Origin: Streptomyces sp. SCUT-3
Lineage (GTDB): Bacteria; Actinomycetota; Actinomycetes; Streptomycetales; Streptomycetaceae
Length of the DNA: 64,000 nt
Direction: 5' to 3'
Assembly (NCBI RefSeq): GCF_014083985.1
Contig: NZ_CP046907.1
Span: forward strand, 2,460,001-2,524,000
Shown: positions 19,427 through 38,731 of the stretch, piece after piece
Layout: the number at the start of each line of letters is the position of its first letter
How positions within the stretch are numbered: the stretch's first letter is position 1
Notes under the pieces: model-generated
What the model was told of the DNA's origin: nothing
Seen by the model: only the letters and a program-made list of their open reading frames with translations
Database searches by the model: none
Position numbers and translations under genes: made by a program

Positions 19427-19463
19427 CCGGACGCACGCACGCGCCCGGGCCCCGGTGGTGACC

Positions 19464-20945
19464 CTTGGGTTCTAACGGTCCTCGCAACACCCGCGATCTG
19501 TGGGAGTTGCGGGGACCGTGGGCGTTGAGCGTGATGATTTTTCCGGGCTGCGGGAGCGTTTCCTTGCGCGGCTGGACGTCGTGGGGAACGTGACTGTGGT
19601 GGCCCGGGAGCTGGGGGTGAACCGGAACACTGCCTTCGGCTGGGCCCGGAAGGCCGGGCGGCGTTCGGAGCGCCGGCCGCGCCGGCATCCCCGGCGGGAC
19701 GAGTACGAGCGGCTTCGGGCCGCCGGTGTCGCACGCCGGGTTGCGGCCCGGCAGGTCGGTGTGAACGAGCGCACGGCCAAGGACTGGGACTGGGGCGTCA
19801 AGAAGACCCGCTCTTCGCGCATCTATCCGGACGGGCGCCGTGTCGACTACGCGGCCGGGACCGTCACGATGTGCGGTGTGACCATGCCACCGGTGGGCCT
19901 GACCGCCCTGGAGAAGCAGCTTCACCCGCGATTCCTGACGCTCGCCGAGCGCGAGAAGATCCGTGATCTGCGTGCGGCGGGGCAGTCGCTGCGGGCGATC
20001 GGACGGGCCTTGGGACGGCCGGCGAGCACCGTCAAGCGGGAGATCGACGCGAACTCCGGCACCGAGGGCTACCGGCCCTACGCCGCCCACCGCGCGGCCG
20101 CCGCACGCAGGCCCCGGCCCAAGGAGCGCAAGCTGCTGCGCGCGGGACGGCTGCGCCGCTTCGTCCGGGACGGACTGCGCCGGCGGTGGTCACCGGAGCA
20201 GGTCTGCCACGCTCTACGCAAGGAGCATCCCGACGACGAGAGCATGCGGGTGAGCGTGGAAACGATCTACCAGGCGCTGTACTTCCAGGCCCGCGGCGGC
20301 CTGAAGCGGGAGGTCCAGGCTGCCGTCCGTTCCGGCCGCACCCGCCGCAAACCACGCCGGGACCCCCAGCGGCGCACCCCTCGGTTCACCGACCCCATGG
20401 TGATGATCAGCGACCGTCCCGCCGACGTCGAGGACCGGGCCGTGCCCGGACACTGGGAAGGCGACCTGATCATCGGCGCGGGCGGCCGCTCCGCGATCGC
20501 CACCCTGGTCGAGCGCAGCACCCGGTACACCATGCTGGTCCACCTGCCGGGCGGCGTCCACGACGCCGAGACCGTCCGCGACGGCCTCGTCACCACGGTC
20601 CAGACCCTGCCCGCCCACCTGCGCGGCTCCCTCACCTGGGACCAGGGCAGCGAGATGGCACGCCACCAGCAGTTCAGCATGGCCACCGGCATGCCCGTCT
20701 ACTTCTGCGACCCGGCCTCGCCCTGGCAACGCGGCTCGAACGAGAACACCAACGGACTCCTGCGCCAGTACTTCCCCAAGGGCACCGACCTGAGCGTCCA
20801 CAGTCCCGAAGACCTCGAACACGTCGCCCAGGAACTCAACGGCCGCCCACGCAAGACGCTCGGCTGGGATACCCCAGCCGAGCGTCTACGTGATCTACTC
20901 ACCACCTGAAACCAAGTGGTGTTGCGACGACCCCTTGAACCCAAG
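19464..20945 (+). mobile_element. IS30-family insertion sequence, 1482 bp
   Basis: Terminal inverted repeats of 28 bp with four mismatches: left CTTGGGTTCTAACGGTC... at 19464-19491 and right ...CTTGAACCCAAG ending at 20945. Both inner ends share CGCAACACC. The element is flanked by a 3-bp duplication ACC (19461-19463 and 20946-20948), the size expected for IS30. One intact transposase gene fills it. It sits inside the loop of a 17-bp-stem terminator whose halves are 19447-19463 and 20954-20970. Confidence 0.9.
19500..20909 (+). CDS. IS30-family transposase
   Basis: 469 residues from GTG 19500. Two HTH regions: an N-terminal one (VTVVARELGVNRNTAFGWA) and the family-typical FLTLAEREKIRDLRAAGQSL / RAIGRALGRPASTVKREI. 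The catalytic core has the DDE triad in GHWEGDLIIG, LTWDQGSEMARH and WQRGSNENTNGLLRQYFPKG, then HVAQELNGRPRKTLGW. The frame is intact, so the element may still be mobile. It is longer than typical IS30 transposases (about 380) owing to the extra N-terminal HTH. Transposition is cut-and-paste or via a head-to-head intermediate, with 2-3 bp target duplication. Confidence 0.93.
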   Translation: MGVAGTVGVERDDFSGLRERFLARLDVVGNVTVVARELGVNRNTAFGWARKAGRRSERRPRRHPRRDEYERLRAAGVARRVAARQVGVNERTAKDWDWGVKKTRSSRIYPDGRRVDYAAGTVTMCGVTMPPVGLTALEKQLHPRFLTLAEREKIRDLRAAGQSLRAIGRALGRPASTVKREIDANSGTEGYRPYAAHRAAAARRPRPKERKLLRAGRLRRFVRDGLRRRWSPEQVCHALRKEHPDDESMRVSVETIYQALYFQARGGLKREVQAAVRSGRTRRKPRRDPQRRTPRFTDPMVMISDRPADVEDRAVPGHWEGDLIIGAGGRSAIATLVERSTRYTMLVHLPGGVHDAETVRDGLVTTVQTLPAHLRGSLTWDQGSEMARHQQFSMATGMPVYFCDPASPWQRGSNENTNGLLRQYFPKGTDLSVHSPEDLEHVAQELNGRPRKTLGWDTPAERLRDLLTT

Positions 20946-20953
20946 ACCCACAA

Positions 20954-20977
20954 GGTCACCACCGGGGCCCTGTTTTT
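20954..20977 (+). terminator. Right half of a terminator split by the IS30 element
   Basis: GGTCACCACCGGGGCCC followed by TGTTTTT is the exact reverse complement of 19447-19463. Removing the IS and one ACC copy restores a 17-bp perfect stem with loop CACAA and a T-tract, 20 bp after the cysteine-rich peptide gene. The hairpin is now 1.5 kb apart. Confidence 0.85.
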
Positions 20978-20997
20978 CCCGCTTCTCGCGGAGGGCT

Positions 20998-21145
20998 GCT
21001 TCTTCTTGCCCGGGTCGTACCGGGGATCTCAACGGCTTGCGTTTCCGCTGCTCAGGATCGTTGTCCCTGAGCCCCTGCCGGTCGCCGTCGATCCTCCTCG
21101 GCCGACGGCAGTCGGCAACGACGGCGGGACAGCCGACCGACGAGG
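20998..21145. repeat. Decayed third attachment-site copy and 45-bp repeat
   Basis: 20999-21029 (CTTCTTCTTGCCCGGGTC, then GTACCGGGGATCT) matches attL at 22461-22492 with one deletion and two or three substitutions. About 100 bp on, 21101-21145 repeats 22675-22719 (GCCGACGGCAGTC core; 45 bp, 4-5 mismatches). The same order of att-like core then repeat at both places suggests the left end of a second, mostly deleted element related to the AICE. No gene is seen in 20978-21175. Confidence 0.65.
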
Positions 21146-21175
21146 TGGCGCGCAGCGGGCCGGGGGGCGGATGTG

Positions 21176-22039
21176 TCAGCCCGTGCAGTTCGGAACGGGG
21201 ACATCGCTGCCGGCGCAGTTGGTGGGCTGGTTGTTCCTGACCCGGCTGGAGTTCAGCACGACGGTTCCGCCCGTGTTCAGGACGCCGCCGGGAGCCACGG
21301 CAGCCGTGTTGGTGTTGACGTTGCTGTCGGTGATGGTGGTACTGCCTCCTCCGACGTTGGCGACGCCTCCGGCCCGGCGGGCCTGGTTCTCGTTGATGTT
21401 GCTCCGGAGGATCTGCAGGGTGCCGTCGTTGGCGGCGCCTCCGCCGACGCCGGTGGTAGCGGTGTTGTCGATAACACGGCTGTTGACGATGGTCATGTTG
21501 CCGTCGTTGGCGACGCCCCCGCCGTTGACGTTGGCGGTGTTGTCCATGATGTTGCTGTTCTCGATCCGCGTCGTCGTCCCCGCGACTCCGCCGATGCCAC
21601 CCGAGTAGTTGGCGCGGTTGTCGCGGATGGTGCTGTGGGACACGGTCAGTCGACCGAAGTTCGCGATGCCGCCACCAAAATCGGATGCGTCTCCGTTCGT
21701 GATGGTCACATCGCGGATGTTGAGATCACCGGCCGCACCCACGGTGAGGATGCCGAAGCCGGCAGTGGAGGAACGGGTGATGGTGCTGCGGTTGGCGTGG
21801 ATGACAAGAGTGCTGGTGACCGGCGGCAGCGGCGAGGTCAGTCTGTAGGTGCAACCCGGCGCCAGGAAGAGAGTGTTGCCTCCGGAGGAGTTGGCGGTGG
21901 CGATCGCGGTGAACAGGGCGTTCTCGTTGCAGGGAACGGCCGTCTGCGCCGAGGACGGCGTGGCGGTGGCCACTACCGTCGCGAGAGCTGCGGTGCACAG
22001 CGCCTGCGCCGTGAACGCGGATGATCCGCGGATGAACAT
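21176..22039 (-). CDS. Secreted right-handed beta-helix repeat protein
   Basis: 287 residues, ATG 22039, with GAGGAGCC upstream. A signal peptide is clear (basic MFIRG, hydrophobic ALCTAALATVVATATPSSAQ). The mature chain is a run of about 22-residue coils with G-G-x-x-N and S-x-I/V-x-N-T/N patterns (FGGGIANFGRLTVSHSTIRD, GGGVANDGNMTIVNSRVIDN, GGGAANDGTLQILRSNINEN), diagnostic of pectate-lyase-like/polymorphic-protein beta-helices. Two Cys pairs (CNENAL / GCTYRL and NCAGS / PNCTG) cap the ends. It is probably exported; no catalytic residues are evident. It lies between two att-like sites, so it may be cargo left by a lost element. Confidence 0.75.
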   Translation of the reverse strand: MFIRGSSAFTAQALCTAALATVVATATPSSAQTAVPCNENALFTAIATANSSGGNTLFLAPGCTYRLTSPLPPVTSTLVIHANRSTITRSSTAGFGILTVGAAGDLNIRDVTITNGDASDFGGGIANFGRLTVSHSTIRDNRANYSGGIGGVAGTTTRIENSNIMDNTANVNGGGVANDGNMTIVNSRVIDNTATTGVGGGAANDGTLQILRSNINENQARRAGGVANVGGGSTTITDSNVNTNTAAVAPGGVLNTGGTVVLNSSRVRNNQPTNCAGSDVPVPNCTG

Positions 22040-22408
22040 GGGTGGCTCCTCGTAGGTCCCGGAACGTGGGTGCTCCCGGTGCCAATGTCCGCAGCGCCGA
22101 CTTTGTGGGAGCGGTGTAAATGGTCACCAGGACACGTGGGAATGACGCTGCTCGGGAGGAGGTGCCCCCTTGACGGCGTAGCTGTTTCCGCCCGGTGGCC
22201 GACATCACGCTCGTTACTTGATGCTTGAACGGCTATGGGTCAAAGCCGCTTCGCGCGAGCGGCCGCACCTTGACGGGGCTTCAATCACGTCTGCGCGCCT
22301 TTTCTCACCTCGGGTCGCGTTCACCCGGTTCCTTCCGGCCGGCGCACCTCTGCGACCGGGTACGGCAGTTGCAGAAGAACGGCATGCGCACCCCCTGAGG
22401 CGACAAAA
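22040..22408. other. 369-bp intergenic region before the AICE
   Basis: Contains the promoter side of the beta-helix gene (minus) and otherwise no convincing gene on either strand. Short frames present lack codon bias and ribosome sites. Confidence 0.5.
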
Positions 22409-22446
22409 AGCCCCCTTCCGGCAGGGACAGCGCCGGAAGGGGGCTT
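22409..22446. terminator. Bidirectional terminator outside attL
   Basis: A 13-bp stem (AAGCCCCCTTCCG with its complement) flanked by AAAAA and TTGTT. It lies just outside the left attachment core and resembles the hairpin beside attR at 38683-38718. It is probably the original gpmA terminator, displaced 16 kb from gpmA by the AICE. Confidence 0.7.
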
Positions 22447-22458
22447 GTTCGTGCGGGG

Positions 22459-22477
22459 TTACTTCTTCTTGCCCTGG
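22459..22477. repeat. attL core
   Basis: The 19-bp core TTACTTCTTCTTGCCCTGG is identical to attR; similarity continues imperfectly to 22487 (TCTTG). On the minus strand it still reads QGKKK-stop, the same ending as gpmA. Confidence 0.88.
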
Positions 22478-22973
22478 GTCTTGCCGGGGATCTTGGTGAC
22501 CTGGATTTTTGCTGGTCAGGGGCAGTGAGCCCGTGCGTCTGGTGGTCGTCGTTGGTCGTCATTGGCCACTGTTGAGCGGCCTCGGACGGCCCAGAGACGG
22601 CCCAGCATTGCCCCGACAGCGCCGCGTTCGGCTGATGGCCGGGGCACCCTCAATGCAGCCCGGTCTGAACCTCAGCCGACGGCAGTCAGCCACGACGGCG
22701 GGCCAGCCGACCGACCAGGCGCGCGTATGCCTCGCTGCACCCCCGCTGGCCTCAGCCACGCCGCTGATGCTCTCGGCCAGAGCAAGCCGCGACGGCCGAC
22801 CCGTGACGACGACGCCGGCGCCCTCAGTTTGGGCATCACCGCTGATGGGGCCAGAGAGCCGTGCCGACCTGGGCAAATCCGCTTGGACCCGTGTCAGTTG
22901 CGAGCTCACGGTCATCGGTGTCAACCGCGGTTCCCCACTCGCTCTAGAAGCCATCTGACACGGCGTTCTCAGG
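22478..22973. other. Left end of the AICE: integrase arm site and repeats, no gene
   Basis: Holds a 21-bp sequence (22585-22605, two copies of ACGGCCCAG) repeated exactly at 38651-38671 next to the integrase stop, probably arm-type integrase binding sites. It also holds the 45-bp repeat 22675-22719 shared with 21101-21145. Four GCTGATG/GGCCAG-like words recur in 22720-22860. No gene with credible codon bias is visible. Confidence 0.6.
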
Positions 22974-23231
22974 TCACTCGTACACAACTGCCGCGCTCAG
23001 TGCACGGGCGAAGAACGTCCAGTCGCCATCCGCTGGCACCTCTTGGTCGAAGTTCCGGTGCCAGGCCGACGAGTCGTCGATCCATGACGCCAGCGCGTCC
23101 AGGTAACGCTCAAGCGTGGAGTTCTCCCACTCACCGCCTCGTTCGAGGAGATCGGCACGCAAGGCACGTATGTGGTCCGACAGGGCCGCTCTACTGTCGA
23201 CTCTGTGCGCCGGATCATTTGGAAGCTGCAC
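22974..23231 (-). CDS. Small acidic protein, DUF7660-like
   Basis: 85 residues from GTG 23231. It has WENSTLERYLDALASWIDD and ends PADGDWTFFARALSAAVVYE, a pattern (W-E-N-x-T-L, then W-x-x-x-A-x-x-L-x-A-A-x-x-Y-E) I associate with DUF7660 proteins, which occur as single small genes, often in accessory DNA. No catalytic residues are visible. It is the leftmost cargo gene of the AICE and runs in the same direction as the OLD-like ATPase 187 bp upstream. Whether it is an immunity or accessory factor of the defence genes is unknown. Confidence 0.6.
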   Translation of the reverse strand: MQLPNDPAHRVDSRAALSDHIRALRADLLERGGEWENSTLERYLDALASWIDDSSAWHRNFDQEVPADGDWTFFARALSAAVVYE

Positions 23232-23417
23232 TATGACGGCACCCTATCTGCGTAGTCGACTGCGACATTCTGGTGTGAGCTGGCACCTAACCGGTAGCGC
23301 ACACGGCTCCGGAGGCCGTGACTATAGGAGGCGAACCTGCAGGTCAGGACAGCTCGGACTAGCAACGTGTCCGTTGCCAGTCCACAGGCAGTCCATGAAT
23401 GCTGATGAGGACAGCGC

Positions 23418-24902
23418 CTACGTCTCGGGTACCAGCCTCTGCTCAAGGGCCCGTACGAATGCGGCGCGCTCCGTGGGAGAAACGGCGTCCTTGGCCCAGA
23501 TCGCCGCTATTGCTTCCCAAACTCGGTCCGTGCGCACGCGCGGGCCTAGATGCTCCGCGACTCGCCGTGTCCAAGCGTGATGGTTGTCAATTTGACGAGC
23601 GTCATCAACCGCTTGAAGAAGTTCACCCGCCCGGACATCCAAGCGCATGGCGACCTTTTCCCAAGAAGCTTCGTCCAGAGAGTCAAACAACTCCTTTTCG
23701 GGAGCCTGGGTTCCGGGCAACGTCACACAGCCACTCTGCTCCGATTGATCCGCGTCTAGCACACCCAACGAAACACTTGGGAGACGTCCTTCGTGCGCCA
23801 GCCCTCCGAGAATAGTCACGGTGGACGCTGCGCCAGCCGCAATGATTTCCACTCTGCGACTCAAGTCGGGTGCCTCTTGGTTAATCAAAGCGTCAATCAG
23901 GACTGCCGCCTTGTCGTCTTCGCAGAACAAAACCAATTCCGGGTGGTCGACGTCGTCCATCAAAGACATGGCGAATTTCGCCGTAACGCCGTAAAGGACA
24001 TCACGGCCGCCGCCGCGATGAGTCTGTATGTAGATTCGGGCTTCCGTAGGCAACTGTTCCATGATCGTCGCCGAGTGGGTGGAAAGGATGAACTGCATCT
24101 TGCGTTTTTCCGCAAGTTCGAAAAGTTCAGCCATCAGACGCCGTTGCGCACGAGGGTGCAAGGAAGCTTCGACTTCGTCGATAATGATCAAAGAGCGATC
24201 AGGGGCGGAGCGGAGAAGATCCACCAGGTCGGCTGTGGCATCCTCGCCTGCGCCCTGGTGGAAGTTGGAGTATTCTCCGGCGCCCGCGTTCAAGACGCCA
24301 ACCTGCTTGTTCTGGAACGTTGCCATGCCACTGGATGTGTAAGGCCTGTTCATGATCCGAGACAGAAGGGCTCGGTCCGACTCGTTAAATGGGGTGACTG
24401 CGGCCGTGAAATTCGCCTGCGTGGCAGCCTTTCCGTACCCAATCTGCGTGTTGACGGGCTGGGTACGGCTGATATCGAGGAAAAAAATTGAACGCGCGAA
24501 GCGGTCAGGCATACCTCGCCAGCGGCTTGTGCGCTTGCGAAGCGTCTGCGTGTCGATCTTTGTCCCTCGCCTCACTTGATAAGTGAGCGTGACGCCCTCA
24601 ACTTTCTCCCACGGAGTATTGGGGAAAAAGTCGTCAGGGTAAAACGTGTGCCCGGTAGTCTGCTCTGCCGTATAGGCGGCAGCCGCAGCCTTCAGGATGG
24701 TGCTTTTTCCTGCTCCATTCTCACCTGCGATAGCTACAACAGGGAACCGGAATTCAACCACTTCCCCTGTCCAGCCGCGCAACCCATTGATCTGAACCGA
24801 GTCCAGGAACAGAGGCCATCCTTTGCTCGTGTTCCGTGCCGTATTCCATTCGTGAGTCAAAGAGCTCAGAGTGGGCAGTGGGCGATGGGTATTATTAGGC
24901 AC
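23418..24902 (-). CDS. OLD-like AAA ATPase with C-terminal TOPRIM-like domain
   Basis: 494 residues from GTG 24902, preceded by AGGAAGAGG; the frame is open to 25034, where ATG 24947 is an alternative. An ABC/SMC-type ATPase: Walker A AGENGAGKSTILKA (about residue 60), Walker B with catalytic Glu SLIIIDEVEASLHPRAQ (about 240), H-loop FILSTHSATIMEQLP. The C-terminal part has LVLFCEDDKAAVLIDALI and SLGVLDADQSEQSG, matching the acidic E and D-x-D of OLD/TOPRIM nucleases. Such proteins act in phage defence (OLD, GajA-like). It follows the M.SgrAI-type gene by 70 bp on the same strand, probably co-transcribed. GC is visibly lower than the core genome. Confidence 0.75.
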   Translation of the reverse strand: MPNNTHRPLPTLSSLTHEWNTARNTSKGWPLFLDSVQINGLRGWTGEVVEFRFPVVAIAGENGAGKSTILKAAAAAYTAEQTTGHTFYPDDFFPNTPWEKVEGVTLTYQVRRGTKIDTQTLRKRTSRWRGMPDRFARSIFFLDISRTQPVNTQIGYGKAATQANFTAAVTPFNESDRALLSRIMNRPYTSSGMATFQNKQVGVLNAGAGEYSNFHQGAGEDATADLVDLLRSAPDRSLIIIDEVEASLHPRAQRRLMAELFELAEKRKMQFILSTHSATIMEQLPTEARIYIQTHRGGGRDVLYGVTAKFAMSLMDDVDHPELVLFCEDDKAAVLIDALINQEAPDLSRRVEIIAAGAASTVTILGGLAHEGRLPSVSLGVLDADQSEQSGCVTLPGTQAPEKELFDSLDEASWEKVAMRLDVRAGELLQAVDDARQIDNHHAWTRRVAEHLGPRVRTDRVWEAIAAIWAKDAVSPTERAAFVRALEQRLVPET

Positions 24903-24972
24903 GCCGCCTCTTCCTATGTTCGCGCTTGGTCCGTCATCTGACGGCATGGGGGCCCGATTTGCGACTGGATGA

Positions 24973-26211
24973 TCAAGCGGAAGAAAGCGCCAGCATTTGT
25001 TGGACGGGGACCGCGAACGAGAGCTTAGAAGCATCTCGCGAATTGAGCTGCGTCAAGGCCTGCTGGGCTGCTGCTGCAAGTGCACGCGCCATCAGAGGGG
25101 GAACGGCGTTCCCGATCTGCTTCAGCATCTGCCATTCACTCGTCTGAAAAACGAAGCCGTCGTGGAACGACTGGAGGCGCGCGGCCTCTCTAACCGTGAT
25201 CCACCGCTGGAACTTAGGGTGCACCCACTCAGACATGTCGCGGTGCATCTGGGCCAGGATCGTGTACGCGGGCTTATCTGGGTGCAAGCGACGCCACTTC
25301 TCCGGGCGAGCTCCATCCCAAATTTCCTTTGGAAGTGAGTCGGCTTTCGCCCCTGGAGCCAGCAAAGAAATCAGCTCTTTCCTGCGTTGCTGGATCTCCT
25401 TGGTGTGATGATTGTGGAGCGCTACAGATCCACCCGCCGCCGTCTTCTTGTACTCAGATGAGTACCAGCGCCCGTCACGGTCAATTCGCATTTCGTCAAG
25501 TACCGGGCTGTTGGCGCGTGATCGCGGGTAAGGGCGAGGCTCATAGTGAACTGCCGTTTCCTCAGGAATGTCCCGGATCGCCTGACGTACGGTGTACTCT
25601 GGTTGCTTCTGCACTTCGAGTGCAGCTTGGAGGAAAGCGCCGGCTTCCATGCCGAGGTCCTCCTCGTCACGCACCCCGAAGAAAATGGCCCGCTTACGAA
25701 GTTGTGGGACGCCGTAATCGCTAGCGGTCACGACGACGACGCCACTATTCGTGTATCCAGCCTCGGCAAATGCAGCAAGCGCGGCACGTTTGAAGCGGCC
25801 CTTAGCAAGGAGGAGCATGTTGGGAACATTCTCCATAAGGAATACCTTAGGTCGAAGTTCCTTCAAAACTCGCACGTATTCGCCGTAAAGCTCGTTGCGC
25901 GGATCGTCTAGGAGGCGAGTGCCGATCTGGCTATAGCCCTGACACGGAGGCCCCCCGAAAAGCATGTCGATGTTGCCTCGCTCAACCGCTTCGAAGCGAT
26001 GACGCTCCTCTTGCCACTCAGCTGACTCGGGCTTGAGGAAATAGTGTACGTCTCCTTCGAAGAGAGGGACCTCGGGGAAGTTATGCCTGTACGTAACTGC
26101 CGCAAAACGGTCCATCTCGACCGCCGCCTCGACGCTGAACCCTGCGAGTCGCACACCCTCACAGAAGCCGCCGCAGCCCGAGAACAGTGAGACTGCTCGG
26201 AACACTGACAT
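24973..26211 (-). CDS. sgrAIM: DNA cytosine-5 methyltransferase of an SgrAI-type R-M system
   Basis: 412 residues with all main C5-methyltransferase motifs: I VSLFSGCGGFCEGVRLAGF, IV GGPPCQGYSQIG (catalytic Cys), VI FLMENVPNML, VIII QLRKRAIFFGV, IX LTVREAARLQSFHDGF-like (TVREAARLQSFHDGF) and X QIGNAVPPLMARAL. The target-recognition region lies about residues 215-320. It methylates cytosine to protect host DNA from the adjacent endonuclease, whose family cuts CR/CCGGYG. Divergent from the controller and endonuclease genes, the arrangement I recall for the S. griseus SgrAI system. The specificity is inferred from the partner enzyme, not from this sequence. Confidence 0.88.
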   Translation of the reverse strand: MSVFRAVSLFSGCGGFCEGVRLAGFSVEAAVEMDRFAAVTYRHNFPEVPLFEGDVHYFLKPESAEWQEERHRFEAVERGNIDMLFGGPPCQGYSQIGTRLLDDPRNELYGEYVRVLKELRPKVFLMENVPNMLLLAKGRFKRAALAAFAEAGYTNSGVVVVTASDYGVPQLRKRAIFFGVRDEEDLGMEAGAFLQAALEVQKQPEYTVRQAIRDIPEETAVHYEPRPYPRSRANSPVLDEMRIDRDGRWYSSEYKKTAAGGSVALHNHHTKEIQQRRKELISLLAPGAKADSLPKEIWDGARPEKWRRLHPDKPAYTILAQMHRDMSEWVHPKFQRWITVREAARLQSFHDGFVFQTSEWQMLKQIGNAVPPLMARALAAAAQQALTQLNSRDASKLSFAVPVQQMLALSSA

Positions 26212-26292
26212 TACTTCCCACCCTTCGTAGCTGCCCTGACCCTAACCGTGGCCGCTGGCAGACTGGCACATCCTAGCTGCACGCCGGCGGAT

Positions 26293-26314
26293 GTGACTTA
26301 TATTCCGTGGTCAC
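26293..26314. promoter_or_regulatory. Candidate C-protein operator in the divergent R-M promoter
   Basis: An inverted repeat GTGAC-N12-GTCAC spans a TATATT-like -10 (26300-26305) in the 130-bp region between the methyltransferase and controller starts. The position and AT-rich centre suit a controller-protein box. Weakly supported. Confidence 0.4.
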
Positions 26315-26343
26315 TGTGTCATCAGCAGTCTACGGTTCGTGGC

Positions 26344-26613
26344 GTGCTCGACTTGCGATCTTCGTTCGGCCTGGCTGTGCGGGCTGTCAGAACAGAGCTG
26401 GGATGGTCGCAGGAGCGTCTATCCGTGGAGTCAGGCCTAGACCGGACCTACGTGAGTGGCCTGGAGCGCGGACAGAGGAACCCCGCTCTACAGACGCTTG
26501 TGCGCCTCGCTGATGCCCTAGGGGTGCCTCTTCACGAGTTGGTCAAGCGCGCAGAGGAGGGGGCACGTGCCGTTCACCTTCAGTCAGGTGGCGACTCAAG
26601 CTTTAGCGACTGA
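26344..26613 (+). CDS. sgrAIC: Controller (C) protein of the SgrAI-type R-M system, XRE HTH
   Basis: 89 residues if started at GTG 26344 (GVLDLRSSFGLAV); GTG 26335 is possible. A compact XRE HTH: VRTELGWSQERLSVESGLDR followed by TYVSGLERGQRNPALQTLVR and LADALGVPLHELV, exactly the layout of R-M controller proteins such as C.PvuII. It should bind an operator upstream to delay and then boost endonuclease expression on entry into a new host, which suits a conjugative element. It overlaps the endonuclease start by 47 bp, so the two are translationally coupled. Confidence 0.85.
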   Translation: MLDLRSSFGLAVRAVRTELGWSQERLSVESGLDRTYVSGLERGQRNPALQTLVRLADALGVPLHELVKRAEEGARAVHLQSGGDSSFSD

Positions 26614-27592
26614 GGATCTGTGCATCACCGACTTGCGGGATGCGCCTATTCGTAATAGGTCTACGAAATTTCGGCTAGCTCAACAAAACATGCTGGCTTA
26701 CACGTTCCCGTCCTTCGTGCCAGGTTTCGCAGAAGCGGGCGTGAATGGCATGCCGTACGGGCAGATCATCGATAGGCCGATCGAAAACGCCAAGAAGGAA
26801 GGGCAGCTCCTCTATGGCGTAGATTTCAGCGTCTCCCCTGCTGCCGTAGCCAAGGTGGCCGGCGATATTTTCGAAATCATTTCGTCCGCTGTTCTTTGGA
26901 ATGCTGCAGCGCGTTGGAATTTCTATATGCGGACTGGAAGCTGGGTTTCGGCACCTCGCTATGCGAAGCCTAACACTCAGCCTGCTCCGTCGCGGCAGGT
27001 GGCTGTGCTCAATTTGCCTCGGGACTATGACTGGGTCCAACTGCTCGTGCCAGAGGCCCGGGATAAGATCGAGGAAATTAGAGCCGGGTTGGGAGGGAAG
27101 GAGCTGGGGCTCCCTACATCAACCCCGGACCTGGCTGTTGTTGTCGTGCCCGAGGAACTCAGGGAGCTGGATCTATGGGCTGATGGCTTGCCGGATCTGA
27201 AGCATCCGTCGCAAGCCGAACTTCGCCATGCGCACAAACTCGTTGAAGGGCGGGTGGAGCCGGGCGAAATAATTCTGGCCGTGGCGTTCAAAAAGAGCTT
27301 GCGCAGCGATAGGCTCTACCAGCCTTTGTATGAGGCCAATGTGATGCAGCTTCTGCTGGAGGGGAGGCTCGGTGCCCCCCGGGTGGAATTCGAAGTGCAT
27401 ACCTTGTCTCTCGAAGGAACGGACGCGCTGAACACGTATACAGCGGCCTCTCTGTATGCGGTTGCAGAGGACCGTCCGGACATCCATCGGGCGGTGAGAG
27501 AGCTTTACATCCCTGAGACTGCCACCCATCTCGTGAAAAGGTTCTTGGGATTCCTTAATGAGCGGATGTCTTTGGTGTCCACTCTCGGTTAA
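26567..27592 (+). CDS. sgrAIR: SgrAI-type restriction endonuclease
   Basis: 341 residues from GTG 26567. The sequence closely follows what I recall of SgrAI of S. griseus (338-339 residues): RNRSTKFRLAQQNMLAYTF, KVAGDIFEIISSAV, LGLPTSTPDLAVVVVPEE, and LAVAFKKSLRSDRLYQPLYE then ANVMQLLLEGRLGAP. The metal and catalytic residues of SgrAI fall at the same numbers: E103, D188, K242 and E301. SgrAI is a tetrameric type IIF enzyme that cuts CR/CCGGYG and forms run-on filaments with relaxed specificity when activated. Methyltransferase and controller are adjacent. No truncation is seen, so it should be active. Confidence 0.93.
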   Translation: MPFTFSQVATQALATEDLCITDLRDAPIRNRSTKFRLAQQNMLAYTFPSFVPGFAEAGVNGMPYGQIIDRPIENAKKEGQLLYGVDFSVSPAAVAKVAGDIFEIISSAVLWNAAARWNFYMRTGSWVSAPRYAKPNTQPAPSRQVAVLNLPRDYDWVQLLVPEARDKIEEIRAGLGGKELGLPTSTPDLAVVVVPEELRELDLWADGLPDLKHPSQAELRHAHKLVEGRVEPGEIILAVAFKKSLRSDRLYQPLYEANVMQLLLEGRLGAPRVEFEVHTLSLEGTDALNTYTAASLYAVAEDRPDIHRAVRELYIPETATHLVKRFLGFLNERMSLVSTLG

Positions 27593-27605
27593 GGGATCAG
27601 TGTAA

Positions 27606-28504
27606 GAGCTCGTAACACGATCTTGTTGAACTGCCCTGGTAGGCCGTGACCGGTGTGACGATTCGGCCGTTCGAGAGGGTGTGACTACCCGGCCGTGGAT
27701 CGTGGACGATGACCTGTGGGCGCTGATCGAGCCGCTCCTGCCACCCTGGCCCGAGAAGGCTCCCGGTCCACGGCCCGTGCCGGACCGGCTGTGCCTGCAG
27801 GGCATCCTCTACGTCCTGTACAACGACATCGCCTGGCAACTGCTCCCCCTTGAGCTGGGGTTCGGCTCTGGTCAGACCTGCTGGCGGCGCCTCGAGCGCT
27901 GGCAACAGGCCGGAGTCTTCGACCAACTGCACCGCGTCCTGCTCGCCAGGCTGCACGCGGCCGGCGAGCTGGACTGGTCCAGAGCATGCGTCGACGGTTC
28001 CCACGTCCGCGCCAAAAAGGGGGAGCCGACACCGGTCCGTCGCCGGTCGACCGGCGGAAGACGGGCAGCAAACACCACCTGATCTGCGACGGACGCGGCA
28101 CCCCGCTCAAGGTCATCACCACCGCGGCCAACGTCAACGACGTCACCCAGACCCTCGCCCTGGTCGACGGAGTCCCACCCGTCGCCGGCCGCCCGGGCCG
28201 ACCCCGCCGGCGCCCCGAGGCCCTCCTCGGAGACAAGGGCTACGACTCCAACCCCAACCGCCGCGAACTGCGCAAACGCCGGATCCTGCCGGTCATCTCC
28301 CGCAAGGGCAGGCCTAACATCAAGGGCCTGGGCAAGCTCCGCTACGTCGTCGAGCAGACCTTCGCCCTCCTCCACCAGTTCAAGCGCCTCGCCGTCCGCT
28401 GGGAACGCCGCACCGAGCTCCACGACGCCTTCGTCTCCCTCGCCTGCAGCCTCATCTGCTGGAGACGCCTCAAGAAGGCCAACTCATGATCGTGTTACGA
28501 GCTC
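27606..28504 (+). mobile_element. IS5-family (IS427-type) insertion sequence, 899 bp
   Basis: Perfect 17-bp terminal inverted repeats GAGCTCGTAACACGATC (27606-27622 and 28488-28504), flanked by a TAA duplication (27603-27605 and 28505-28507). Contains two overlapping transposase frames. It landed 13 bp after the endonuclease stop, between AICE cargo and backbone. It may have displaced the endonuclease terminator. Confidence 0.92.
27681..28489 (+). CDS. IS5-family transposase made by -1 frameshift
   Basis: The first frame (27681-28082) encodes the N-terminal domain (RPWIVDDDLWALIEPLLPPW) and the first catalytic Asp in ACVDGSHVRAKKG. The second frame (to 28489, -1 relative) carries SPVDRRKTGSKHHLICDG, the second Asp in ALLGDKGYDSN and the Glu in RYVVEQTFALLHQFKRL. 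The frames join at an AAAAAGGGGG slippery run (28014-28023), as in IS427-group elements that need programmed frameshifting. The full product would be about 270 residues. The slippery run argues that the split is functional and not decay. Confidence 0.9.
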
Positions 28505-28507
28505 TAA

Positions 28508-29873: not shown

Positions 29874-30263
29874 GTGTTCACCAAGTGGTGCCGCGCCTTC
29901 CCTGGCCTGCCGGACCAGGTGGCCGAAGCCCGTCACTTCGTAGCTGCGTTACTCCAGGAGTGGGGGCGCGCCGACGATGGAGTCCTGGTCGTCGGAGAAC
30001 TGGCGGCCAACGCCGTACGCCACACGCTGAGCGGGAAGGCCGGCGGCTGGTTCCTCGTGATCGTCGGCTTCGGAACGGGCTTCGTGCGCATCGAGGTGAT
30101 TGATCAGGGTGGCGGCGGTGTGCCGGCGATGCGTGACGTGACCAGTCTGGAAGAGGGTGGTCGCGGACTGGCGCTGGTGGCGGCCTGCGCGAAGGATTGG
30201 GGCACCAAGACTCTGCCGAAAGGCTCCTCGGTGTGGGCGGATCTGGTGCGGGAGGGAGCGTGA
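29874..30263 (+). CDS. HATPase domain protein, anti-sigma/RsbW-like kinase
   Basis: 129 residues from GTG 29874 (GAGGAG 10 bases upstream). A stand-alone GHKL ATPase: N box GELAANAVRHTLSG, G1 VIDQGGGGVPAM, G2 GGRGLALVAACAKDWGT. Such proteins in actinobacteria bind sigma factors or phosphorylate anti-anti-sigma proteins. Its partner may be the sigma-like HTH protein at 30436, and the PP2C-type protein at 31284 could reverse its action. A CTAG palindrome overlaps its promoter. Confidence 0.85.
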   Translation: MFTKWCRAFPGLPDQVAEARHFVAALLQEWGRADDGVLVVGELAANAVRHTLSGKAGGWFLVIVGFGTGFVRIEVIDQGGGGVPAMRDVTSLEEGGRGLALVAACAKDWGTKTLPKGSSVWADLVREGA

Positions 30264-30392
30264 CCGCACCTGGCCTGTTCCTGCTCGGCGGCCGTGTGGG
30301 CGGCGGGGGGTGAGTCCTCGGGGGGTGCCTCGGCGTCGGTCAGGCCTCTACGCGATAGGTGTCCGGTCGGGACGACAGCTCCCGCCTGTTTC

Positions 30393-30408
30393 GTCTAGGG
30401 GCCTAGAC
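30393..30408. promoter_or_regulatory. CTAG operator, copy 2
   Basis: A palindrome GTCTAGGGGCCTAGAC, 27 bp before the HTH regulator start at 30436; same half-site as copy 1, with a 4-bp GGGC spacer region. Confidence 0.75.
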
Positions 30409-30435
30409 TCTTGGGCGAGGCTGGGAGGTGAGGAC

Positions 30436-31287
30436 ATGTCGGACGAGTTGCAGCGGATCATGGCGATCGATGATCCGTACCTGCTCCTGCGTGAGGTCAC
30501 GGCCCGGTTGGCCGATGCGCAGCGGGAGGTCACCGAGCTCGCTCGGCTGCGGCGCCGTGTGGTGCAGGACCTTCACGCCCAGGGGCTGTCGTACGCGCAG
30601 ATCGCGGCGAAGGCCGGCCTCAGCCGCGGACGCATTCACCAGATTCGCCACACCGGCCCGGCGCCCGAGGGTGCCTTCCTCGGATCGGGTGCTGTCACGG
30701 TCGCGACGCCGTTGCGGCGGGACGACGAGCGGGGGCGCACGGTCGTCGCAGTGGACGACGTCAGTTCCGGCAAGCGGCTGGAAGACCTGGCGCGGTCGTA
30801 CGGGCTCGAGGTCACCTCCGAGCATGTGCCGGTGAGCGGAGAGATCGACCTCAACCGTGATGGCCTGGTCGTCGTCTGCGGGCCGCGGATGTCCCAGGAC
30901 ATGTGGAACACCTACGCCCAGGACCCCGTACTGCGCTGGGAGCGGGCGGAAGACGGGCCCTGGACGGTCGTGGACCGGCTCACCGGCACCGTGCACCGGT
31001 CGGGGCAGGACAGTGATCCGGCCCGGCCGTACGACGTCGGCTATCTCGGTCGTCTGCTGCGCCCGGACGGCAAGGGCTCGCTCCTCGCCATCGCCGGTAT
31101 CCACACGCAAGGATCGCTCGGCGTCGTCCAGCTGCTCGCCTCCGACCTGAACTCCCTGTGGGGTCAGGTCGGGGAGCACCGGTTCTCCACCCTGGTGGGG
31201 GTCGAGTACGACCCGGAGACCAGTGAGCCGCGGTCCGTAGAACTGGTCTGCCCGCTCTACCGTCACGACGAGGAGACGGCCGGGTGA
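30436..31287 (+). CDS. Sigma-like HTH regulator of the AICE
   Basis: 283 residues from ATG 30436 with GGAGGTGAGG upstream. The N-terminus has a coiled helix (LLLREVTARLADAQREVTEL) then a sigma-70 region 4-like HTH: LHAQGLSYAQIAAKAGLSRG then RIHQIRHTG. The remaining ~190 residues (GLVVVCGPRMSQDMWNTYAQ, LLAIAGIHTQGSLGVVQLLA) form an alpha/beta sensor domain, seen in other AICE regulators, that may bind a nucleotide-like ligand. It overlaps the phosphatase gene by 4 bp. A CTAG palindrome sits at its promoter, so it is a good candidate for the factor reading that operator. Confidence 0.8.
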   Translation: MSDELQRIMAIDDPYLLLREVTARLADAQREVTELARLRRRVVQDLHAQGLSYAQIAAKAGLSRGRIHQIRHTGPAPEGAFLGSGAVTVATPLRRDDERGRTVVAVDDVSSGKRLEDLARSYGLEVTSEHVPVSGEIDLNRDGLVVVCGPRMSQDMWNTYAQDPVLRWERAEDGPWTVVDRLTGTVHRSGQDSDPARPYDVGYLGRLLRPDGKGSLLAIAGIHTQGSLGVVQLLASDLNSLWGQVGEHRFSTLVGVEYDPETSEPRSVELVCPLYRHDEETAG

Positions 31288-32105
31288 GGCTCGCCCTCGG
31301 CACCTCGCCGTCCGGGCCGGACAGCGAGAACGAGGACTTCGCCGCTGCCGCTCCCGGTGTCGCTGTGCTCCTCGACGGTGCCGGCGTGGCAGGCGCGGAA
31401 ACCGGGTGTGTGCACGGTGTCGCCTGGTTCTCCGGAATGCTGGGAGCGCTGCTGCTGCGCACCCTCGCTGCGCGTCCGGCCTGGTCGCTCGTCGAGTGCC
31501 TGGCCGACTCCATCCGTGCCACCCGCTCGCTCCACGAGGACGTCTGCGACCTGGGCTACCGGGCCAGTCCGACCAGTACGGTCGTTGCCGTCCGGGCTCG
31601 TGACGGACTGCTCGAACACCTCGTGCTCGGTGACTCCTCACTGCTCCTCGTGCAGCGGAGCGGGAACTGTTCCGTGGTCACCGACCGGCGCCTGGACGAG
31701 GTCGGCGCACGCCTGCGCGGGGCGGTCGACGAGCTGCCCACCGGTTCGCCGGAGCATGCCGCCGCACTGGCCGAGTACCGGGACGCCCTGACCTCTCTTC
31801 GCAACCGGCCGGGCGGTTTCTGGATCGCCGGCCCCGATCCACTCGCGGCCGAGCACGCGGTGACCGGCGCGGTGCCGCTGGACTCCCTGGCCTCGGTGAC
31901 GCTGTTGAGCGACGGGGCGACGCGTCTGGTGGACCGCTTCGGACTCGCCTCGTGGGACGAGGCCTTGGCCGTCCTCGACTCCACCGGCCCGGACGAGCTG
32001 ATCCGCCGGACCCGCGAAGCGGAAGACAGCGACCCCGACGGTCGACACTGGCCGCGGGGCAAAGCTCACGACGACGCCACTGTCCTGCACTGGGTGCTCT
32101 CGTAG
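31284..32105 (+). CDS. PP2C-like serine/threonine phosphatase
   Basis: 273 residues, GTG 31284, overlapping the HTH gene by GTGA. PP2C metal-binding motifs: NEDFAAAAPGVAVLLDGAGV (first Asp pair), VVAVRARDGLLEHLVLGDSS (second), LLSDGATRLVDRFG and KAHDDATVLHWVL (C-terminal D-D). The protein should dephosphorylate Ser/Thr residues in a metal-dependent way. Next to a GHKL kinase and a sigma-like HTH protein it suggests a partner-switching module inside the AICE. The coupling to the HTH gene hints that the HTH regulator is the phosphoprotein or works in complex. Confidence 0.8.
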   Translation: MRLALGTSPSGPDSENEDFAAAAPGVAVLLDGAGVAGAETGCVHGVAWFSGMLGALLLRTLAARPAWSLVECLADSIRATRSLHEDVCDLGYRASPTSTVVAVRARDGLLEHLVLGDSSLLLVQRSGNCSVVTDRRLDEVGARLRGAVDELPTGSPEHAAALAEYRDALTSLRNRPGGFWIAGPDPLAAEHAVTGAVPLDSLASVTLLSDGATRLVDRFGLASWDEALAVLDSTGPDELIRRTREAEDSDPDGRHWPRGKAHDDATVLHWVLS

Positions 32106-32640: not shown

Positions 32641-33999
32641 ATGTCTGATGCCCTGTGGGTCCTGGTACCGGTGCTGCTGGTGGTGGCCGCGCTGGTCGCG
32701 GTGCGCCGTCGACTGCCGGTTCTGTTCTGGTGGCTGGTCGGATATCCGGTCGTCACGCTGCGGGTGCTCACCTCGTACCGGGCCACCATGGATGCCTGCG
32801 GCCTGACGGTGCCGGCCTCGGCCGTACGTCGGGCCACGGCCCGGATGATGGGGCGGCAGGCTGCTCCCGTACCCCCTCGGCGGTCGCTGCCGCTGCCGAC
32901 CGGATCCGGGCTCGTGATGCGGCTGCGCATGGCGGCCGGGCAGGCGCCCGAGGATTTCACCGCCTCGGCCGACCGGCTGCGGCACGCCTGGGGTGCGCAC
33001 GCTGTGCATGTCCGTCTCACCAAGCCGGGACGGCTGGAACTGCGGCTGGTCGGCTGGGACGTTCTTGCCGACGTCCGGCCCGCCCGGCGGTGGCTGCGGA
33101 CCGGTCCGCTGTCTCTGCCGCTGGCGTTGCGCGAAGACGGGCACTGGCACGTCCGGGACTTCCGTACCGTGCCGCACGAACTGATCCTCGGCGCCACGCA
33201 GTCGGGTAAGTCCGTCTACCTGCGCAACCTGCTGTGCGGGCTGGCCCGCCAACCCGTCGCGCTCGTCGGCATCGACTGCAAATGGGGCGTCGAACTGACT
33301 CCGTTCGCCCCTCGTTTGTCAGCGCTCGCCGATACGCCGGGCCGTACGAACGACCTCCTGGACGCCCTGGTGGAGGAGATGGAAGCGCGGTTCCGCCTGA
33401 TCGGCGTGACGGGCGGGACCGGTCCGGACGCTGTGCTCACCTCAGACGTCTGGGGGCTGCCGGAGAAGCTGCGGCCGGTGCCGGTCGTGGTCGTCGTCGA
33501 CGAGGTTGCCGAACTCTTCCTCGCCGCGAGCAAGGACGACGAGAAGCGGCGGGACGCCATGGTCACCAAGCTCATCCGGCTCGCCCAGCTCGGCCGCGCG
33601 GCCGGCATCTACCTGGAGGTGTGCGGGCAGCGCTTGGGCGCCGAACTCGGCAAGGGCGCCACCATGCTCCGTGCCCAGCTCACCGGACGGGTCTGCCACC
33701 GCGTCAACGACGAGACCTCCGCCAACATGGCGCTCGGCGACATCGCACCGGAAGCCGCGCTGGCCGCAACTTCCATCCCGGCCGAGCGGCCCGGCGTCGC
33801 TGTCGTCGGCGACTCTTCCGGCGGCTGGTCCCGCATCCGCTCGCCCCACCTCACCCTCGACGACGCGGCGGCCGTCTGCCGCGACACCTCGGACCTGATC
33901 CCGGAACTGACCCGCCTCGACTCCTTCCGGCCCCTCGTGGCCGAGAAGCCCGCCGGGCCTTCCCCTGCCGCGCCCACCGCTCGCCCGGTGACCGAGTAG
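32641..33999 (+). CDS. TraB/FtsK-type DNA transfer ATPase
   Basis: 452 residues. Two N-terminal membrane helices (LWVLVPVLLVVAALVAVRRR and LPVLFWWLVGYPVVTLRVL), then an FtsK motor: Walker A LILGATQSGKSVYLRN (about residue 182), Walker B VPVVVVVDEVAELFLAASKD, and IYLEVCGQRLGAELG with LRAQLTGRVCHRVND. Streptomyces AICEs and plasmids need only one such hexameric translocase to move double-stranded DNA between mycelial compartments. No C-terminal gamma HTH is obvious, though the last 50 residues are Pro/Ala-rich. It is the only transfer motor in the element and appears intact. Confidence 0.92.
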   Translation: MSDALWVLVPVLLVVAALVAVRRRLPVLFWWLVGYPVVTLRVLTSYRATMDACGLTVPASAVRRATARMMGRQAAPVPPRRSLPLPTGSGLVMRLRMAAGQAPEDFTASADRLRHAWGAHAVHVRLTKPGRLELRLVGWDVLADVRPARRWLRTGPLSLPLALREDGHWHVRDFRTVPHELILGATQSGKSVYLRNLLCGLARQPVALVGIDCKWGVELTPFAPRLSALADTPGRTNDLLDALVEEMEARFRLIGVTGGTGPDAVLTSDVWGLPEKLRPVPVVVVVDEVAELFLAASKDDEKRRDAMVTKLIRLAQLGRAAGIYLEVCGQRLGAELGKGATMLRAQLTGRVCHRVNDETSANMALGDIAPEAALAATSIPAERPGVAVVGDSSGGWSRIRSPHLTLDDAAAVCRDTSDLIPELTRLDSFRPLVAEKPAGPSPAAPTARPVTE

Positions 34000-34320: not shown

Positions 34321-35034
34321 ATGCGTGCCCGCCTGGCCCGAGTGGACGCCGTGATCGTCCAGGCCGTGATCGCAGGTGCCCTGTCCTTCTCCCACCTGCA
34401 CGACCTCGCCGCGGCCGCCGGACAGGACGGCTGGAAGGCATGGGCCTACCCCGTGAGCGTCGACCTGCTGCTGGTCGCCGCCTGGCGCCGGATGCGCCAG
34501 CAGCAGCGAGCAGGACAGGCGGCCGGGGGGCCGCGGCTGTGGTTCCTGGTGGCCCTGGCCGCGTCCCTCGGTGCCAACGTCGCCACGGCTGGGCTCCTCG
34601 ACCTAGACCATGTGCCGGCCTGGCTCCGCGTAACGGTCGCAGGCTGGCCCGCCGTCGCCTTCTTCGGCGGCACACTGCTGGCCCACGCTCCGCATGGCCC
34701 GCAAGCACCGACGGCCCCGGCCCCCTCCCCCATGACGGACACGGATACGGAGCCGCACTCCGCCCGGGGCGCCGTCGACGGGCCCGACCGCAACGCACTC
34801 CCGGCGCCCTCCACCGGCCCCGAACCGACACCGGAGCCCAGCGCCGAACCGGTCGCCGCCCCGACTCCAGAGCCCGCTCCCGCCGTCTCCCTGCCGCCCG
34901 CCCTCGTCGACCGCGTCCGGGCCCTGGCCGAGGAGCATCGCTCGACCACCGGCCACCCCATCGACCCCGACGCCGTACGCGCCCGGCTCGGCCTGCCCCC
35001 GTCCATGACCACGTCCATCGCCGCGCACCTCTGA
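34321..35034 (+). CDS. SpdB/DUF2637-type membrane protein
   Basis: 237 residues, ATG 34321, with AGGAGACG upstream. Four hydrophobic segments in the first 125 residues (AVIVQAVIAGALSFSHLHDL, WAYPVSVDLLLVAAW, LWFLVALAASLGANVATAGL, VTVAGWPAVAFFGGTLLAHA) are typical of DUF2637 proteins coded by Streptomyces plasmids and AICEs. A Pro/Glu/Ala-rich linker (about 130-190) leads to a C-terminal HTH-like domain (LVDRVRALAEEHRSTTGHPI, VRARLGLPPSMTTSI). These proteins assist intramycelial spread after transfer. Confidence 0.82.
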   Translation: MRARLARVDAVIVQAVIAGALSFSHLHDLAAAAGQDGWKAWAYPVSVDLLLVAAWRRMRQQQRAGQAAGGPRLWFLVALAASLGANVATAGLLDLDHVPAWLRVTVAGWPAVAFFGGTLLAHAPHGPQAPTAPAPSPMTDTDTEPHSARGAVDGPDRNALPAPSTGPEPTPEPSAEPVAAPTPEPAPAVSLPPALVDRVRALAEEHRSTTGHPIDPDAVRARLGLPPSMTTSIAAHL

Positions 35035-35049
35035 GAGAGGAGCACCACC

Positions 35050-35229
35050 GTGAACCGGCGCTTCCGCAACGTCCGCCGCATCGGTCCCGTGAACGTCGCC
35101 TCGTACGTCGACCGCGGCCGGAACCGCCACCTGGTCGCCTGCACTGCACCCCGCTGCGACTTCTCCGCCGAGTACGACAGCCGCGCCGCCGCCGAACTCG
35201 CCGCTCGTACTCACCGCTGCCCGGCCTGA
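35050..35229 (+). CDS. Small zinc-finger-like mobile element transfer protein
   Basis: 59 residues from GTG 35050, 15 bp after the spdB-like stop, with GAGAGGAG upstream. Starts VNRRFRNVRRIGPVNVASY; contains C-T-A-P-R-C-D-F and later H-R-C-P, a C-x4-C...H-x-C arrangement that could bind zinc. The basic N-terminus suggests nucleic-acid contact. Short proteins of this pattern are commonly annotated as transfer proteins in AICEs. Confidence 0.75.
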   Translation: MNRRFRNVRRIGPVNVASYVDRGRNRHLVACTAPRCDFSAEYDSRAAAELAARTHRCPA

Positions 35230-35828: not shown

Positions 35829-37175
35829 ATGCACCCTGCGGCTCCGACCGGAGCCCTCCGCCAGCTGGCAGCACTCGCCCGGCACGTCGACCTCGGCGCC
35901 TACGCACGCCAGGTTCAGCGCCTCGGCGGCTGTGAGCGGCCCGTGCGGATGGAGGGCCACCGGCTCGACGTCCACGCCGCCACCGGTGAGATCGTCCGCG
36001 AGATCGCCGACCACGACCTTCCGGCCGGACAGCTCCTCATCCGCTGCAACAACCGCCGCGCCACCCGGTGCGCCTCCTGCGCCGAGGTCTATCGCAAGGA
36101 CACCTTCCACCTGGTCACGGCCGGCCTGAGCGGCGGCAAGGGCATCGGCCCGGCCGTCACCCGGCACCCGCGCGTCTTCGCCACGTTCACCGCCCCGTCC
36201 TTCGGCCCCGTCCACAACCGCCCCGGCGGCGGCCGGTGCCGCTGCGGACGCCTCCACCCGGACGACGATCCCGCCCTCGGCACGCCCCTGGACCCGGACC
36301 GGTACGACTACCGCGCGGCCGTCCTGTGGAACGCGCACGCCGGGGCACTGTGGGCCCGCTTCACCACCTACCTGCGCCAGCACCTCGCCTCCCGCGCGGG
36401 CCTCAGCCGCTCGGCGCTGCGTCATTGCCTCAAGGTCTCCTACGCCAAGGTCGCCGAGTACCAGCGGCGCGGCGCCGTCCACTTCCACGCCGTCATCCGC
36501 CTCGACGGACCGGGCGGCGCCGAGGACACCCCGCCGGCCTGGGCCACCACCGAACTGCTCGCCGACGCGATCCGCTCGGCGGCACGGACGGCTGAGACCC
36601 CCGGCCCCGTCCTCGACGGCCACGCCTACGCCTTCCGCTTCGGCGAACAGCTCGACATCCGCCCCATCCGCTCGGCCGACTTCGCGGGCACCTCGGAACT
36701 GTCCAGCCGCGCCGTGGCCGCCTACATCGCCAAGTACGCCACCAAGGGCGCCGAAACCGCGGGCACCCTGGACCGCCCTGTCCTCAACCCGATCACGGAC
36801 CTGATCGGCTCGGGCGTCACCGACCACGCCCGGCGCATGATCCTCACCTGCTGGCACCTCGGCGCCCTGCCGGAACTCGAAGCCCTGCGCCTGCGCAAGT
36901 GGGCCCACATGCTCGGCTTCCGCGGCCACTTCTCCACCAAGTCCCGCGCCTACTCCGTCACCCTCGGCGCCCTTCGCCAGGAACGCGCCGACCACAACGA
37001 GGCCCTGGCCCGCGAACGCGCCGACGCGGCCGGCCACCCGCTGCCCGACCCGGACACCGTCCTCGTCCTCTCCCACTGGCGCTTCGCCGGGACCGGCCTG
37101 ACCACTGCCGAAACCTGGCTCGCCGCCACTCGTCAACCCGACTCCGAACCGGAAGGAGAGGCGCACCGTGTCTGA
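35829..37175 (+). CDS. repSA: RepSA-type rolling-circle replication initiator
   Basis: 448 residues, ATG 35829 with AAGGAGG upstream. It matches the pSAM2 RepSA family: a zinc-finger-like part (IRCNNRRATRCASCAEVYRKD), FATFTAPSFGPVHNRPGGGRC, CRCGRLHPDDD, the HUH-type metal motif AVHFHAVIRLDG, and the active-site region RAVAAYIAKYATKGAETAG with catalytic Tyr. Initiators of this type nick the double-strand origin, often within their own gene, and start rolling-circle replication of the excised circle. Xis and Int follow with overlapping starts. All motifs are intact. Confidence 0.93.
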   Translation: MHPAAPTGALRQLAALARHVDLGAYARQVQRLGGCERPVRMEGHRLDVHAATGEIVREIADHDLPAGQLLIRCNNRRATRCASCAEVYRKDTFHLVTAGLSGGKGIGPAVTRHPRVFATFTAPSFGPVHNRPGGGRCRCGRLHPDDDPALGTPLDPDRYDYRAAVLWNAHAGALWARFTTYLRQHLASRAGLSRSALRHCLKVSYAKVAEYQRRGAVHFHAVIRLDGPGGAEDTPPAWATTELLADAIRSAARTAETPGPVLDGHAYAFRFGEQLDIRPIRSADFAGTSELSSRAVAAYIAKYATKGAETAGTLDRPVLNPITDLIGSGVTDHARRMILTCWHLGALPELEALRLRKWAHMLGFRGHFSTKSRAYSVTLGALRQERADHNEALARERADAAGHPLPDPDTVLVLSHWRFAGTGLTTAETWLAATRQPDSEPEGEAHRV

Positions 37176-38651: not shown

Positions 38652-38718
38652 CGGCCCAGAGACGGCCCAGAGGCAGCAACGAGCCCCCTCCCGGCGGAGA
38701 AACCGCAGGCAGGGGGCT
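38651..38718. repeat. Integrase arm-type repeat and terminator hairpin near attR
   Basis: 38651-38671 is a 21-bp exact copy of 22585-22605 (GACGGCCCAGAGACGGCCC core, itself two 9-bp units). 38683-38690 and 38711-38718 form an 8-bp GC stem (AGCCCCCT/AGGGGGCT) followed by TTGTT, ending the int transcript and, in the other direction, gpmA. Confidence 0.75.
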
Positions 38719-38731
38719 TGTTCGCAGGTGC

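Follow-up and report, generated by a model that had tools for sequence, protein, structure and literature searches.

The analysed window, 64,000 nucleotides of Streptomyces sp. SCUT-3 (contig NZ_CP046907.1, positions 2,460,001 to 2,524,000; its own numbering is used below), contains genes of a Type II restriction–modification (R-M) system orthologous to SgrAI, the model enzyme for studies of filaments in DNA defence. Very probably this system occupies the cargo slot of a pSAM2-type actinomycete integrative and conjugative element (AICE). A copy of the SgrAI recognition sequence, CRCCGGYG, is conserved in the control region of the cassette; the possible effect of this site is not part of the above conclusion and is assessed separately.

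The restriction–modification cassette

The cassette consists of three genes:

26567 to 27592, plus strand: SgrAI-type restriction endonuclease (REase), 341 amino acids; residue 56 is Glu, as against Ser in SgrAI
24973 to 26211, minus strand, divergent: C5-cytosine DNA methyltransferase (MTase), C5 DNA methylase by Pfam, E 4.6e-62
26344 to 26613, plus strand: controller (C) protein, HTH_3; the GTG start at 26344 was picked by conservation, the frame being open from 26248

Among PDB sequences, SgrAI was the phmmer match of the REase (E 8e-141), with a gapless alignment over residues 1–338, of which 216 (64%) are identical. The REase also matched the family profile PF07832 (E 1.7e-65) and keeps E103, D188, K242 and E256. 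Residues R31, K96, E103, D188, K242, R246 and E256 are common to SgrAI and all five homologs, namely the window REase and four fetched relatives (L002–L005); K96, R246 and E256 presumably have roles in SgrAI-type endonucleases. The motif surrounding R31, a residue with a described role in DNA contact (PMC8960973), is kept in the REase as well. An earlier sequence-only reading had placed E103, D188, K242 and E301 at SgrAI's own positions, and all four indeed coincide; however, position 301 is occupied by E, E, K, T and G in the five homologs, with E in the window, so this match carries little weight, and E301 was dropped as evidence for identity with SgrAI as not diagnostic. Glu301 is counted among the active-site residues of SgrAI (PMC8960973), and the SgrAI variant E301W acts like the wild type (PMC4399878).

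The same reading had described a divergent methyltransferase and an overlapping controller, and both were recovered. The controller gene overlaps the REase gene by 47 nt. The best match of its product among solved structures is C.AhdI (E 1.4e-12), with C.BclI and C.Esp1396I-type proteins (structure 3clc for the latter) also among the nearest, and the PADLOC profile Control_protein matches it with E 2.9e-15. Features of R-M systems controlled by C proteins are represented by the position of the C gene upstream of and overlapping the REase gene, the HTH fold family and a C-box, the latter read from the letters only. The system is predicted to be specific for CRCCGGYG.

A scan of genome contigs yielded 47 stretches with the pattern and three relatives: Streptomyces sp. 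BK239 (L002; REase identity 82%), Streptomyces sp. MUM 2J (L003; 69%) and Micromonospora globbae (L004; 61%). The scan depends on exact short peptides, so distant relatives may be missed. The plasmid collection contains two records of Clavibacter michiganensis with 57% identity, both typed conjugative, of which one was fetched (L005) and the second was left out of the counts. Matches to the MTase, C protein and REase were found in the same arrangement in all four fetched relatives. No REase relatives besides that of the host's own genome were found in 391 genomes of the order or in 394 genomes of the family, and a PF07832-based search of 396 genomes of the phylum returned only the own genome; by these overlapping samples the SgrAI-type system is rare. 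There was no REase match in the phage collection, and 57 pattern stretches from viral contigs contained no REase relatives.

The surroundings of the relatives are different. In BK239 the cassette is located directly downstream of genes matching phage head, tail, tail-fibre and endolysin families; this row of phage structural and endolysin genes followed by SgrAI-type genes (1922–11020 of L002) suggests a prophage-borne copy. An Mrr-type gene (E 2.5e-7) is located about 3 kb from the cassette of MUM 2J, and a DrmA-like gene of the DISARM type about 6 kb from that of M. globbae.

The conjugative element and its cargo

The block at 22974–27592 has a GC content of 58.2%; five 1-kb windows at 23001–28000 show values of 0.57–0.61, and the remaining 59 windows 0.65–0.78, so that the low GC content attributed to the block is borne out by the profile. 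The genes and repeats of the surrounding element are as follows:

22393 to 22487, no strand: attL-like repeat, 19-bp exact core at 22459–22477
27605 to 28505, plus strand: IS5-type element between the REase gene and the AICE core, with two overlapping transposase open reading frames and exact 18-bp inverted repeats
32641 to 33999, plus strand: FtsK/SpoIIIE-type transfer protein (Tra)
34321 to 35034, plus strand: DUF2637 protein
35050 to 35229, plus strand: SpdB-type spread protein
35829 to 37175, plus strand: RepSA replication initiator, E 5e-153
37168 to 37404, plus strand: HTH_17 protein, excisionase (Xis) by position
37290 to 38651, plus strand: tyrosine integrase, true start probably at 37401, after xis
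38666 to 38760, no strand: attR-like repeat, core at 38732–38750, overlapping the 3' end of the His_Phos_1 gene
38732 to 39568, minus strand: histidine-phosphatase family gene (Pfam His_Phos_1), the integration target

Genes of an HTH/DUF5753 regulator, FtsK-type Tra, DUF2637, SpdB, RepSA, HTH_17 and tyrosine integrase thus form the region of 28.9–38.7 kb. The att repeats are 80% identical over 95 bp, including the 19-bp exact core, and since the core at 22459 recurs at 38732, the element is about 16.3 kb long and encloses the whole block. With its tyrosine integrase, xis, Rep, FtsK-type Tra and bounding att repeats, it is a pSAM2-type AICE, an AICE having been assumed by the sequence-only reading; its excision and transfer are putative. 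No tRNA was detected at either att site: a search of 18000–41000 against Rfam gave six matches, all far below the gathering scores. The target gene is presumably that of a phosphoglycerate mutase, and no paper on the integration of Streptomyces elements at the phosphoglycerate mutase gene was found in the open-licence literature.

Relatives of the integrase (E <= 1e-60) are present in 101 of 200 genomes of the family, the own genome included. In seven of the eight fetched stretches with such relatives, the alignment to the window runs through the integrase gene and on into the same gene of the chromosome; six of eight contain two or more att-like copies, and in three (L037, L038 and L041) both cargo flanks align to the window and the interior does not. 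Open frames were scanned in four loci, L037 (one frame), L038 (two), L039 (one) and L040 (three), L041–L044 being left out. Between the att copies, L038 encodes a PDC-S19 protein (E 2e-138) and L039 an NACHT-Mrr protein; L037 encodes an IS110 transposase. For L040 the scan gave a methyl-directed enzyme of type IV (E 7e-94) that may lie inside the element, no left att copy being found in the L040 stretch. These data support the location of the R-M block in a cargo slot with different content in related AICEs. R-M systems are already published among AICE cargo (PMC9513070). The claim that the R-M system is AICE cargo is supported by orthology, residues, the order of the MTase, C and REase genes, the att-bounded element and the variable slot. 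The type IV enzyme of L040 (10421–19150), located near the same integrase type, would attack methylated DNA, a strategy opposite to that of the window system.

The block contains two further genes:

23418 to 25034, minus strand: HEC-04/IbfA-like ATPase, AAA by Pfam; inspection favours a start at 24950, just past the MTase stop
22974 to 23231, minus strand: DUF7660 protein, E 7.7e-20, downstream of the ATPase gene

The ATPase matches the PADLOC profile HEC-04 (E 4.7e-55) over positions 18–476 of 494. HEC-04, an ABC ATPase fused to TOPRIM, is described as acting on phages T4 and T5; a homolog, IbfA, is located on a conjugative plasmid (PMC12111858). An OLD-like AAA/TOPRIM protein and a DUF7660-like gene had been proposed at these places; the latter was recovered, as was the AAA part of the former, and the TOPRIM half was matched only through the whole-length HEC-04 profile. 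ATPase relatives (E <= 1e-30) were found in four of 200 genomes of the family, the own genome included.

Several other features of the region were observed. A third att-like copy (20999–21015) and a sequence like the left end of the element are located at 20996–22460, before attL at 22459, with a 287-aa frame at 21176–22039 between this copy and attL; L038 likewise contains three att-like copies. The third copy suggests the accretion of an older, decayed element. An IS30-type element with HTH_38 and rve domains and 17-bp inverted repeats is located at 19447–20970. Genes of an HATPase_c_2 protein, a sigma-70 region-4-like protein and a protein with a weak PP2C match follow one another at 29874–32105 and may together form an anti-sigma/phosphatase regulatory set of the AICE.

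The control region and alternative explanations

The gap between the MTase and C genes is 132 bp long and contains two features:

26282 to 26289, no strand: CRCCGGYG site CGCCGGCG, the only exact match in 22974–27592
26295 to 26320, plus strand: putative C-box GACTTATATTC-CGTG-GTCACTGTGTC, resembling the C.PvuII-type consensus, read from the sequence

The C.PvuII-type consensus is GACT-tat-AGTC with GT in the spacer (PMC4824078). The site and the putative C-box of the window are 5 bp apart, and BK239, MUM 2J and M. globbae contain CACCGGCG in the corresponding position, likewise 5 bp ahead of a box of similar sequence. Exact CRCCGGYG is thus present in the control region of four of the five loci, and in these four it is the sole match within the R-M block. 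The longest invariant stretch in the five-way alignment of the gap is CCGGCG. In shuffled gaps the chance of a site is 0.018–0.040 per locus and 2.6e-6 for at least four of five loci if these are independent, a value that is too small, because the five loci are related. By eye, the site is located between a TAGGAT hexamer on the MTase side and the C-box. Its position points to control gated by methylation, of the kind reported for CfrBI and AhdI; we place the chance that it has a regulatory effect just short of even. The simplest model would be joint control by the C-box and methylation. A wholly new type of control was considered and downgraded, as regulation by promoter methylation was already reported for CfrBI, AhdI and LlaDII (PMC12707154); no publication was found with a title or abstract on the control of SgrAI genes.

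Two tandem C-box-like units follow the CRCCGGYG site in MUM 2J (2443–2490 of L003), and two such units, spaced further apart, are present in M. globbae, one being seen in the window and in BK239. The single hit to the operator pattern in viral contigs was rejected as a chance match; it is located inside long open frames, in a contig without any found part of the system.

A number of observations weigh against a sensing role of the site and against a system working as SgrAI does. The Clavibacter locus contains GACCGGCG, one base off CRCCGGYG, and its block has no exact match. Since 0.35–0.53 CRCCGGYG sites are expected per R-M block, being the only site in a block means little, and it is the shared position that counts. 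Random stretches of the same length from the same loci contain the site more frequently than shuffled gaps, namely 0.037–0.089 for the four site-bearing loci. No sigma-70-type promoter was found in the gap by a consensus scan. CRCCGGYG is not avoided in the host genome, with 5,473 matches versus 4,711 for the reversed pattern, and this says nothing for long-term restriction. Finally, filament activation may differ in the window REase, because Glu56 is the change that in SgrAI (S56E) reduced activation from >200-fold in the wild type to 10-fold (PMC4399878).

In SgrAI, activation is also lowered by R131A and R134A (PMC4399878), and mutants with weakened filaments provide little or no phage protection (PMC9788392). 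The window REase contains E56, R131 and K134, with P27 and R31 kept, and the REase of MUM 2J contains E56, K131 and R134; the other three homologs have A, P and N at position 56, so that natural Glu56 occurs in two of five. The charge may be compensated in the window REase, since it gains R122 and is without E124 and R127. The window homolog would either compensate for Glu56 or behave differently from SgrAI.

The conserved CCGGCG may also be part of an extended C operator or of an MTase promoter element that matches the SgrAI site by chance, an explanation with a substantial probability, although somewhat below one half. It agrees with the fixed distance of 5 bp between CCGGCG and the C-box in four loci, with the retention of CCGGCG without the full site in the Clavibacter plasmid, and with the common descent of the five loci, owing to which conservation need not mean recognition by the R-M system; but the full CRCCGGYG is kept in four of the five, the sole difference among these, the G that the window has for A at position 2, is permitted by the degeneracy of the site, and the longest invariant run falls exactly on CCGGCG. 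Instead of sensing, the site could act as a fail-safe, at which the enzyme, upon failure of methylation, would cut its own control region between the MTase and REase genes and end expression. The placement of a single CRCCGGYG between two transcription units fits such a role, but the 5,473 chromosomal sites would also be cut and one more adds little, which makes it unlikely.

Two other explanations concern the block as a whole. AICE cargo is often pseudogenised (PMC9513070) and the IS5-type element adjoins the block, so the system or the element could be decayed and the cargo an inactive passenger; this is improbable in view of the open frames of the REase, MTase and C genes and of tra, rep, xis and int, and of the kept key residues of the REase. 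The neighbouring position of the MTase, ATPase and DUF7660 genes on the same strand could point to one functional defence system formed together with the R-M genes, but the four fetched R-M loci gave no match to the ATPase or to DUF7660, and none to the R-M genes or DUF7660 was found beside two of the three other ATPase relatives, the two for which wide flanks were fetched. A single system is therefore very improbable, and by the evidence of these two relatives the R-M, ATPase and DUF7660 genes seem to be independent modules that share a cargo region.

Proposed working and comparison with known systems

In the preferred reading, an SgrAI-orthologous system carried by the AICE, the MTase would mark the 5,473 host CRCCGGYG sites before the REase rises; the MTase of SgrAI methylates C3 of CRCCGGYG (PMC9788392). 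The REase would stay low until the C protein accumulates on the C-box and drives the overlapping C and REase genes, and would then cut unmodified CRCCGGYG in incoming DNA; as with SgrAI, its activation would probably depend on filaments. The authors of the SgrAI studies relate the behaviour of the enzyme to the genome of S. griseus, which is large (PMC2998434, PMC9788392). Methylation may feed back on transcription of the MTase gene, and perhaps of the C and REase genes, through the CRCCGGYG site located in the gap of this divergent pair at 5 bp from the C-box. Protection of the host from phage and its addiction to the element, both proposed by the sequence-only reading, would follow from general R-M biology; together with specificity, expression timing and filaments they are the parts of this explanation that we infer.

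More tentatively, and with a chance clearly under one half, the C operator and the conserved own site may form a sentinel, the methylation of which reports the protection of about 5,500 sites and gates the switch from the MTase to the C protein and REase, the activation of the AICE-borne Glu56 enzyme being re-tuned or compensated. Its occurrence in three settings, an AICE, the neighbourhood of prophage genes and a conjugative plasmid, shows that the cassette moves between hosts, which makes entry into an unmethylated genome a recurring problem; the control-region site may explain how such entry is safe. This site and the natural Glu56, neither of which was mentioned in the sequence-only reading, make two questions directly testable: safe entry, and the need of strong filament activation for protection.

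Compared with SgrAI (PDB 3DPG, 7S8D and others), the window REase keeps the catalytic and named DNA-contact positions, the R31 loop and P27, but contains Glu56 for Ser56 and Lys134 for Arg134 and is altered at 122, 124 and 127, in the loop touching neighbouring DNA in the filament. As to CfrBI, AhdI and LlaDII, the window system is similar in having its own recognition site in the control region; its MTase and REase genes are divergent, as in CfrBI, and its C protein is nearest to C.AhdI among solved chains. It differs in that the site adjoins a C-box, where an effect on transcription is presumed from position. The ATPase matches the HEC-04 profile over nearly the whole length of the latter, its TOPRIM part and any HEC-04/IbfA-like activity being putative, and it is only a neighbour of the R-M genes. 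The element resembles pSAM2-type AICEs in RepSA, FtsK-type Tra, SpdB, Xis-like HTH_17, tyrosine integrase and att repeats, but integrates in a protein-coding gene and not in a tRNA gene. The cassette belongs to a known type of system, its notable points being a conserved feature of the control region and a natural variant at the filament interface.

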